Below are positions 36,671 to 39,748 of a DNA stretch of 64,000 nucleotides, piece by piece. The notes below the pieces were generated by a model. That model worked only from the letters and a program-made list of their open reading frames with translations, was not told the origin of the DNA and made no database searches. The stretch covers positions 186,001 to 250,000 of the forward strand of contig NZ_KB899545.1 of the NCBI RefSeq assembly GCF_000378345.1, written 5' to 3'. The position numbers were made by a program, and so were the translations under genes. Every line of letters begins with the position of its first letter. Within the stretch, counting starts at the first letter, position 1. This stretch comes from Hirschia maritima DSM 19733. GTDB lineage: Bacteria; Pseudomonadota; Alphaproteobacteria; Caulobacterales; Hyphomonadaceae.

Positions 36671-37360
36671 ATGAAGTTTGAACGTTTTGGGAACAAGGCT
36701 GATTTAGTTGAACGCGCATATGAGATCGTGTTTGAAGTGCTGGATGTTGGGCTTGCGCAAAATGGCGCTGCCAGCTTGATGTGTTCGGGTGGTTCGACGC
36801 CTGGACCACTTTATGAGCAGTTATCTGCGACTGACCTTGATTGGTCAAAAATTAAAGTTGGCTTAGTCGATGACCGTTGGGTATCTCCCGACCATGACCG
36901 TTCAAACCAAAAACTCCTCAACAATACTCTGTTGAAAAACAATGGCGCAGCAGCCAAGTTTTATCCGATGTTTGTTGAGGGCAAGTCTGCTGCTGAGGCA
37001 GTGGAGCAACGGGCCGCTGAGTTTGCTGAAATAAAATTGCCACTAGATGTTGTGATTTTGGGGATGGGGCCTGATGGACATTCTTTATCTTGGTTTCCAG
37101 AAGCTGACGGGCTGATAGAAGCGACTGATCCATCTAATGACAAACTAATTGCCGCGGTTATGGCGAACCGATCTGAGGTGACGGGTGATGAATTGGAACG
37201 TATGACTCTAACTTATAAAGCTGTGGCGAATGCTAAGAATGTAATCTTGATGATTACAGGTGAAGACAAGTTAAAAGTCTTCGAAGACAAGAGTACTGAT
37301 TATCCTGTTCGTCTTGTGGAAAAGGCTGCCGGTGATCGTCTCATCATTTTATATGCTTGA
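36671..37360 (+). CDS. pgl: 6-phosphogluconolactonase
   Basis: A 229-residue cytoplasmic enzyme of the DevB/Pgl family that hydrolyses 6-phosphogluconolactone in the pentose phosphate and Entner-Doudoroff routes. Family blocks are LMCSGGSTPGPLYEQL, WSKIKVGLVDDRWVSPDHDRSN and DVVILGMGPDGHSLSWFP, the last holding the phosphate-binding and catalytic residues. It lies two bases after the dehydrogenase gene, so the two are co-translated. zwf and edd, the usual partners, are not in the window. Confidence 0.93.
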   Translation: MKFERFGNKADLVERAYEIVFEVLDVGLAQNGAASLMCSGGSTPGPLYEQLSATDLDWSKIKVGLVDDRWVSPDHDRSNQKLLNNTLLKNNGAAAKFYPMFVEGKSAAEAVEQRAAEFAEIKLPLDVVILGMGPDGHSLSWFPEADGLIEATDPSNDKLIAAVMANRSEVTGDELERMTLTYKAVANAKNVILMITGEDKLKVFEDKSTDYPVRLVEKAAGDRLIILYA

Positions 37361-37385: not shown

Positions 37386-37415
37386 GCAAATGCGTGTCAT
37401 ATATCACGCATTTGC
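37386..37415. repeat. Perfect 11-bp inverted repeat between pgl and the prkA promoter
   Basis: The arms GCAAATGCGTG (37386-37396) and CACGCATTTGC (37405-37415) enclose TCATATAT. It starts 26 bases after the pgl stop and ends eight bases before the -24 element. There is no T-run on the plus strand, so it is either an imperfect pgl terminator or a regulator-binding site. Confidence 0.55.
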
Positions 37416-37422
37416 CGCAAAT

Positions 37423-37439
37423 TTGGCACTAAAACTGCA
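37423..37439 (+). promoter_or_regulatory. Candidate sigma-54 (-24/-12) promoter of the prkA operon
   Basis: The sequence TTGGCACTAAAACTGCA has GG and GC exactly ten bases apart and matches TTGGCAC-N5-TTGCA except for one T to C change in the -12 element. It points towards prkA. In E. coli the homologous yeaGH operon is known to be driven by a sigma-54 promoter under NtrC, which supports the assignment. Confidence 0.6.
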
Positions 37440-37670
37440 TTAAATTATTCCATAATTAAGAAAATGCTCTCATGCTGTTTGAGCGTTTGGTGGCAAGTTT
37501 TGCCTGAAAAACCGACTTCAAAGTCAGGGCGCTGTTTCTCGTCTAAATTGAATTCACAATCACTGAAATAATTATCACATCCTTGTAACATATGCATTTT
37601 TTCTCTTTGCGTATTTGGAAATGCAGGGCATGATTCACCTGTAACGAGTTTTGTCTGAACAGGAGGTGTC

Positions 37671-37814
37671 ATGCCTAGAATGCTTCAGGTTGGAACTTCT
37701 GGGCCTTTGTGCCTAGTCGAAACACTACCCGCCTTGGAGGGCGACGGTCTCGTTACAATTCAACCCAATTTCAAAATTAATTTCTCTAACTTTAGGACGG
37801 AGCGACTAGAATGA
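37671..37814 (+). CDS. Predicted small protein (47 aa) translationally coupled to prkA
   Basis: A 48-codon frame below usual gene-calling limits. It starts MPRMLQVGTSGPLC and ends FRTERLE. The evidence is positional: AGGAGGTG, close to an ideal Shine-Dalgarno, lies just upstream of the ATG (four-base spacer after AGGAGG), and the stop overlaps the prkA ATG (ATGA). I recognise no domain, signal peptide or membrane segment; there is one Cys. It could be a real small protein, a leader peptide that controls prkA translation by coupling, or chance. PrkA also has its own weaker site (AGGACGGAG), so coupling may not be essential. Confidence 0.5.
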   Translation: MPRMLQVGTSGPLCLVETLPALEGDGLVTIQPNFKINFSNFRTERLE

Positions 37815-39748
37815 GCGAACTCTTTGACTCTTATACACGCGCCTTTGAAGCCCGTCGCGAAACAGTGATGAGCCTTCAGGATTATCTGGAGGGCTGCAAA
37901 AGCGACTCACTAATGTATGCAGGACCACACGAAAGATTGCTGGCCGCCATTGGTGAACCGGAAATGGTGGATACTTCCAAAGACCCGCGTTTGGGTCGAA
38001 TCTTTATGAATAGAACAATCCGCGTTTATCCAGCCTTTAAAGAATTTTTCGGCATGGAAGAAACAATAGAACGTATCGTGGCGTTTTTTCGCCAAGGTGC
38101 GCAAGGTTTAGAAGAACGCAAACAAATACTTTATCTATTAGGCCCAGTAGGTGGCGGTAAGTCTTCCCTCGCAGAACGCGTGAAGTCACTCATGGAAGAG
38201 CAGCCGGTCTATGTACTCAAGGCAGGTGACGATTTATCACCGATTTTTGAAAGTCCATTGGGACTGTTTGATCCTGAAATTTATGGTGAGCAACTCTCCT
38301 CTGAGTTCAATATCCCAAAACGTCGTCTGACGGGGTTAATGAGCCCATGGGCACTTAAAAGACTAGATGAATTTGGTGGTGATATCACCAAGTTCAAAGT
38401 CGCCAAGTTAATGCCTTCTCGTTTGCGGCAGACAGCTATTGCTAAAACCGAGCCCGGCGATGAAAACAATCAGGATGTGTCCTCACTCGTTGGGAAGGTG
38501 GATATTCGCCAGCTTGAATTCCATTCTCAAGATGATCCGGATGCATATTCTTATTCTGGTGGTCTAAACCGCGCTAATCAAGGTGTACTTGAATTTGTGG
38601 AGATGTTTAAAGCTCCGATCAAGATGTTGCACCCATTGCTGACAGCGACACAAGAAGGAAACTATGTTGGCTCTGAGAATATCGGTGCAATTCCTTACAC
38701 GGGAATTATCATGGCCCACTCCAATGAAAGTGAGTGGAAATCCTTTAAGAACAACAAAACCAATGAAGCGTTTATCGACCGTATTTATGTGATCAAAGTT
38801 CCATATTGTTTGCGTGTTGAAGAGGAAGTGAAAATCTACGAAAAACTCGTTGGATCATCGGAGCTTTCAGAAGCGCCTTGTGCACCAGGCACATTGGAAA
38901 TGTTGGCGCAATGTTCAGTGCTTTCTCGTCTGAAAGAGCATGAAAACTCTACACCTTATGCGAAGATGCGCGTTTACGATGGTGACAGCCTAAAAGATGT
39001 CGACCCCAAAGCACGCACAATGCAAGAGTATAAGGACGTAGCAGGTGTCGATGAGGGGATGAATGGAATCTCCACACGTTTTGCTTTCAAAGCGCTCTCG
39101 GCAACGTTCAATCATGATACAGAGGAAGTTGCGGCTGACCCCGTGCATCTCATGTATGTGATGGAGCAAGCAATTAAGCGTGAGCAATTCCCTGAGGAGG
39201 TCGAAAACGCGTATCTCGGCTACATAAAAGGTGAATTGGCACCGCGTTATGCGGAGTTTATCGGCCATGAAATCCAGAAAGCATATTTGGAAAGTTACCA
39301 TGATTACGGGCAAAACCTGTTTGACCGATATGTTGATTATGCTGACGCTTGGATTGAAGATCAGGACTTTAAAGATCCAGATACTGGTCAGCTATTAAAC
39401 CGCGAGTCTTTGAACCAAGAGCTTTCGAAAATTGAAAAACCAGCTGGCATAGCAAACCCAAAAGACTTCAGAAACGAAGTGGTGAAATTCACTTTACGGA
39501 CACGTGCCAACAATAAGGGTGAGAACCCAAGTTGGACATCCTATGAGAAAATCCGAGAAGTAATTGAGCGCCGTATGTTTGCTCAAGTGGAAGAATTGCT
39601 GCCGGTTATCTCATTTGGTTCTAAAAAGGACTCCGACAGCGAGAAGAAGCACAATGAGTTTGTTCAGCGCATGGTAGAGCGTGGTTATACCGACAGGCAG
39701 GTAAGACGCCTCGTTGAGTGGTATATGCGCGTGAGACAAGCGGGGTGA
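37811..39748 (+). CDS. prkA: PrkA family serine protein kinase (YeaG-like)
   Basis: A 645-residue cytoplasmic protein. It has an N-terminal AAA-type domain with Walker A GPVGGGKSSLAERVK (about residue 115), preceded by FFGMEETIERIVAFF, and the C-terminal PrkA domain. Conserved blocks include NRANQGVLEFVEMFKAPIKMLHPLLTATQEGNY and AHSNESEWKSFKNNKTNEAFIDRI. PrkA/YeaG proteins are linked to starvation, sporulation and stationary-phase stress; both kinase and Lon-like protease activities have been proposed. It leads the prkA-yeaH-spoVR operon, has its own AGGACGGAG, and overlaps the small upstream frame. Confidence 0.95.
   Translation: MSELFDSYTRAFEARRETVMSLQDYLEGCKSDSLMYAGPHERLLAAIGEPEMVDTSKDPRLGRIFMNRTIRVYPAFKEFFGMEETIERIVAFFRQGAQGLEERKQILYLLGPVGGGKSSLAERVKSLMEEQPVYVLKAGDDLSPIFESPLGLFDPEIYGEQLSSEFNIPKRRLTGLMSPWALKRLDEFGGDITKFKVAKLMPSRLRQTAIAKTEPGDENNQDVSSLVGKVDIRQLEFHSQDDPDAYSYSGGLNRANQGVLEFVEMFKAPIKMLHPLLTATQEGNYVGSENIGAIPYTGIIMAHSNESEWKSFKNNKTNEAFIDRIYVIKVPYCLRVEEEVKIYEKLVGSSELSEAPCAPGTLEMLAQCSVLSRLKEHENSTPYAKMRVYDGDSLKDVDPKARTMQEYKDVAGVDEGMNGISTRFAFKALSATFNHDTEEVAADPVHLMYVMEQAIKREQFPEEVENAYLGYIKGELAPRYAEFIGHEIQKAYLESYHDYGQNLFDRYVDYADAWIEDQDFKDPDTGQLLNRESLNQELSKIEKPAGIANPKDFRNEVVKFTLRTRANNKGENPSWTSYEKIREVIERRMFAQVEELLPVISFGSKKDSDSEKKHNEFVQRMVERGYTDRQVRRLVEWYMRVRQAG

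Follow-up and report, generated by a model that had tools for sequence, protein, structure and literature searches.

A putative translated leader ORF overlapping the prkA start codon in Hirschia

Results

Genomic setting of the small ORF

The window analyzed here is a 64,000-nucleotide stretch of DNA from a Hirschia genome of 3.34 Mb (G000), which was compared with two other genomes of the same genus, one H. baltica-like (G001, hereafter H. baltica) and a third (G002). Within this window, a small ORF lies immediately 5′ of prkA. The gene order downstream of the small ORF is that of the usual prkA-yeaH(DUF444)-spoVR operon, and the gene on its 5′ side, of the 6-phosphogluconolactonase type, ends at position 37360. 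The PrkA/YeaG-YeaH-YcgB operon is widespread, serves in starvation and stress, and is controlled in ways that are only partly known. The features of the locus are as follows.

37391–37410, no strand assigned: inverted repeat TGCGTGTCATATATCACGCA, 95% conserved with H. baltica, adjoining the promoter match
37423–37439, plus strand: predicted σ54-type (−24/−12) promoter, a sequence match, TTGGCACTAAAACTGCA
37581–37595, plus strand: conserved block CCTTGTAACATATGC, identical in H. baltica and similar in locus L011
37626–37676, plus strand: predicted hairpin pairing the Shine-Dalgarno (SD) sequence and ATG of the small ORF, −21.7 kcal/mol, z −4.1 (computed for 37625–37678)
37661–37668, plus strand: SD of the small ORF, assigned by sequence, AGGAGGTG, with AGGAGG kept in H. 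baltica
37671–37814, plus strand: small ORF of 47 codons (47 amino acids, MPRMLQVGTSGPLCLVETLPALEGDGLVTIQPNFKINFSNFRTERLE), its stop overlapping the prkA start
37795–37802, plus strand: SD region of prkA itself, GGACGGAG, with GGAG 8 bases 5′ of the ATG, kept in H. baltica
37811–39748, plus strand: prkA (yeaG family AAA+/kinase), PF08298 583 bits, PF06798 250 bits
39755–41059, plus strand: yeaH family (DUF444), PF04285
41090–42655, plus strand: spoVR/ycgB family, PF04293 and PF24755

The σ54-type match is the sole exact match to TTGGCACNNNNNYTGCW in the entire G000 genome, and the site is kept in H. baltica as TTGGCATCAAAACTGCA. A GG-N10-GC promoter and an rpoN gene, the two features expected of a σ54-dependent prkA operon, are both found in the genome sequence. 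If this promoter is used, transcription would start near position 37451, which would put the small ORF on the prkA mRNA. Because the best σ54-type match of the genome lies 232 bases upstream of it, the small ORF probably belongs to the prkA mRNA leader. A looser σ54 pattern yields barely more matches than its control, and therefore we regard the putative promoter as a strong lead rather than proof. In Rhizobium etli, prkA is strongly RpoN1-dependent (PMC3188799), and E. coli yeaGH is a member of the NtrC regulon (PMC4664914).

Other candidate cis elements are evident in this region. The inverted repeat and the σ54-type match reside together in a 95%-conserved block (37391–37455) 5′ of prkA, and the repeat could serve as an operator beside the promoter. 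In addition, L011, from a more distant Hyphomonadaceae genome, carries CCTTGCAACATATG 5′ of prkA, which resembles CCTTGTAACATATGC; this block may be a second cis element common to G000, H. baltica, and L011.

Translation signals of the small ORF

As claimed in a preliminary description of this DNA, 47 codons are open from the ATG at 37671, with the SD directly 5′ of the start codon (a 2-base gap, TC), and the TGA (37812–37814) overlaps the prkA ATG (37811) by two bases in the form ATGA. When examined as a coupled upstream ORF, for which we looked for a start codon with an SD and a stop lying between approximately −4 and +25 nt relative to the main start, the small ORF displays each of these features. 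The ATGA overlap by itself carries little weight, because prkA begins with ATGAGC and frames of that phase that reach prkA must stop there.

The genome holds 128 occurrences of AGGAGG-N3–9-ATG versus 66 for the reversed control pattern. Long frames start at about half of the sampled occurrences (17 of 30 and 8 of 20), and a spacer of 4, the short spacer used by the small ORF, also precedes frames of 83, 98, and 177 codons. The putative ribosome-binding site therefore beats chance but falls short of proof.

The simplest alternative is that an untranslated frame happens to be open in a slowly changing intergenic region. Shuffling at the local base composition leaves a 47-codon frame open 6% of the time, about half of the sampled AGGAGG-ATG sites start no long frame, and tests based on two species are weak. 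However, the SD, the ATG, the conserved block, and the codon bias described below all fall in one frame, and we give this explanation the least credence of any considered here. The small ORF is more than a chance occurrence, but as a feature it stays at the level of the genus, and its peptide is unstable.

Conservation and codon bias between two Hirschia species

Sequence identity between G000 and H. baltica is ~88% over positions 37640–37778 (through codon 36), drops to 45% over the 20 bases past codon 36, and is ~55% in the 120 bases 5′ of position 37580. For this one genome pair, which is the source of both the conservation and the codon-bias signals, codons 1–36 aligned through an indel exhibit 13 differences, of which nine are at third positions. 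Eight codons are changed synonymously and four nonsynonymously, and the third-position and synonymous counts alike give P ~0.01 versus random placement (dN 0.05, dS 0.43). Among the codons after the insertion in H. baltica, six of seven changes are synonymous (P 0.003). These values suggest that a 36-residue peptide was selected as a protein in the past, and the simplest reading would be an ancestral ORF of ~36 codons under peptide-level selection. The codon bias also gives indirect support to translation of the small ORF. A signal of purifying selection, which the preliminary description had put forward as a check, is seen between the two species, but the frame itself is broken by an indel in H. 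baltica.

Third positions diverge by 25% in the small ORF versus 42% in prkA, and therefore the bases are constrained for another reason too. This observation brings in the main rival explanation, wherein the conserved block represents a non-coding leader or a regulatory DNA or RNA element (a promoter-proximal element, a hairpin, or the target of an sRNA or protein) and the open frame is incidental. Also in its favor are positions 37640–37670, 5′ of the ATG, which are as strongly conserved as the ORF, the broken frame in H. baltica, and the 5′ UTR of E. coli yeaG, which is sRNA-regulated (PMC10954441). Against it stand the codon-position bias and the fact that the conserved block stops at a codon boundary beside a stop codon in H. 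baltica.

A frame switch in H. baltica

The SD and ATG of the small ORF are unchanged in H. baltica. However, a one-base insertion at codon 12/13 (CC-TTT versus CCTTTT) causes most of the 36-residue peptide to be lost, and a net 7-base deletion follows codon 36. Because the two indels (+1 and −7) sum to −6, the resulting ORF of 45 codons again ends with ATGA on prkA, although from the same ATG it is read differently from codon 13 onward and its C-terminal part is unrelated. A TAA is located directly after codon 36 in the shifted frame; if this was the ancestral stop, the ATGA overlap is secondary.

We know of no slippery site that resembles CCT TTT GGG, the sequence at which a programmed +1 frameshift would have to occur in H. 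baltica. Sequencing error is an unlikely cause of the indel, because the H. baltica genome is finished and Illumina-polished, with a stated error rate of <1 in 100,000 (PMC3368421). Either the peptide was lost in H. baltica and the ATGA ending is coincidental, or a translated leader that delivers ribosomes to prkA has been kept regardless of its peptide. The probability of coincidence is the chance of the right phase, roughly 1 in 3, multiplied by that of the frame staying open.

RNA structure and access to the prkA ribosome-binding site

H. baltica is predicted to form a different and weaker hairpin (z −1.9) that also pairs the SD of the small ORF. The two species use different base pairs, with no compensatory changes between them, and the SD hairpin predicted by folding is only suggestive because its pairings are not conserved. 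The whole leader folds no more stably than its shuffled versions, and the leader has no match in Rfam; neither compensatory changes nor a known family, either of which would indicate a structured cis-regulatory RNA, was found. Positions 37641–37648 (GTAACGAG) are complementary to positions 37749–37756 (CTCGTTAC), and both segments are kept in H. baltica. Such long-range pairing is possible and lies within chance expectation. For a non-coding element, the stability of the hairpin in G000 and the conserved complementary segments are favorable, but the drifting pairs, the ordinary fold of the leader, and the empty Rfam search are not. On balance we consider this explanation less likely than a translated leader, although it is the foremost competitor; a partner protein for PrkA is less likely still.

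The computed burial of the prkA ribosome-binding site is 9.7 kcal/mol versus 12.5 ± 2.7 kcal/mol in shuffles, and hence the site is not more buried than expected. Rendering the small ORF unstructured shifts this value by only 0.6–1.8 kcal/mol. Coupling by RNA unfolding is therefore not supported: the prkA ribosome-binding site is at least as open as in shuffles, and removing the structure of the small ORF barely alters it. Re-initiation at prkA is possible. The earlier proposal that the ORF acts as a leader that tunes PrkA synthesis stands: the SD, ATG, and ATGA ending occur in both species, but the structure calculations reveal little dependence of prkA on translation of the small ORF.

Distribution among relatives

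A protein search of 105 genomes of the family and 398 of the order returned genuine matches to the small ORF only in G000 and H. baltica. Hits in G244, G156, G383, G216, G052, G172, and others were rejected as chance matches; they sit within long frames and are scattered over unrelated sequences, and several resemble antisense or GC-driven frames. By DNA search, the small-ORF block is present in G000 and H. baltica and absent from G002, where a 35-codon frame of weaker SD occupies the ATGA phase before prkA without similarity to the small ORF. Among ~90 alphaproteobacterial prkA loci, a strong-SD ORF ending with ATGA on prkA was observed only at the two Hirschia loci. No second copy of the small ORF was found elsewhere in the genome, and the peptide has no match in Pfam or NCBIfam. 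A conserved small protein family would present an intact frame in several lineages, whereas this frame occurs in two genomes of one genus, one of which is frameshifted.

Overlapping ORFs at Acetobacteraceae prkA loci, whose frames end at +5 as counted from the query-aligned prkA start, were also rejected, as no peptide is common to that frame. Six Acetobacteraceae prkA loci (L044, L050, L054, L063, L075, and L077) carry similar DNA ~60–130 bases 5′ of prkA, which appears as similar words in different frames and is likely a conserved promoter element. Separately, the prkA gene of G011 (L014/L016, G011:C1:139621-141542) was matched as two overlapping pieces (query 3–528 and 524–644), which suggests that its sequence carries a frameshift.

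Co-oriented neighboring genes often encode partners, and the small ORF sits directly 5′ of prkA. The frame might encode a functional trans-acting small protein, such as a PrkA partner, that was recently lost in H. baltica by frameshift. The purifying pattern of codons 1–36 agrees with this proposal. However, the frame is missing from G002 and from all other prkA-bearing relatives examined, the peptide matches no Pfam or NCBIfam family, an indel disrupts the frame in H. baltica, whose finished genome has the accuracy noted above, and no confident fold was obtained (mean pLDDT 63, from a single-sequence structure model that is uninformative). We judge such a protein to be clearly unlikely. Protein, DNA, and locus searches revealed no conservation of the frame across Hyphomonadaceae or Caulobacterales, which makes a general PrkA partner unlikely; as a conserved protein, the partner envisaged by the preliminary description is not supported.

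Discussion

The small ORF is most likely a translated leader ORF that is weakly coupled to prkA and restricted to this lineage. More specifically, we propose a Hirschia-specific upstream ORF in the leader of the prkA-yeaH-spoVR mRNA that acts mainly in cis and modestly delivers ribosomes to prkA, and we assign this reading a probability of roughly 0.45. Transcription from the σ54-type promoter would place the small ORF in the 5′ leader, where ribosomes would load at its own strong SD and probably translate it, perhaps gated by the hairpin over that SD. These ribosomes would finish at the start of prkA or slightly ahead of it and could re-initiate there. The peptide of 36 residues may have been under purifying selection until recently, its sequence having since been dropped in H. 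baltica.

In favor of this cis-acting leader are the contrast in identity (88% versus 55%), the codon bias, the retained SD, ATG, and ATGA, and the upstream σ54-type match; moreover, NTGA overlap is the commonest coupled spacing (PMC12548453). Against it, only two genomes are informative, G002 has no homologous frame, and prkA has its own SD. A variant that we consider highly unlikely holds that a 36-residue, Hirschia-specific protein under σ54 control modulates PrkA in trans and that the indels in H. baltica have kept only the cis coupling. If so, the coding and coupling functions of one ORF would have come apart.

A translated leader ORF, if real, would give the prkA operon of one genus an additional level of translational control. 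Its reach is limited because relatives are without the small ORF. The frame switch with a kept ATGA nevertheless offers a small natural test of the act of leader translation versus its peptide.

Among known systems, bacterial regulatory and coupling upstream ORFs (reviewed in PMC12548453) share with the small ORF a short leader frame, a strong SD, and NTGA overlap, but here the coupling is putative, prkA has its own accessible SD, and two species only are involved. The 5′ UTR of E. coli yeaG, which is regulated by SdsR, belongs to the same gene family and likewise concerns a post-transcriptionally controlled leader in a σ54/NtrC-linked operon; unlike in Hirschia, the excerpt of that report (PMC10954441) mentions no upstream ORF. 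The excerpt on the R. etli prkA operon (PMC3188799) describes no such small ORF either, and the Hirschia promoter, unlike its R. etli counterpart, is a sequence prediction. In both organisms, prkA comes first in a prkA-vWA/DUF444-spoVR operon, which in R. etli is preceded by a σ54-dependent promoter.
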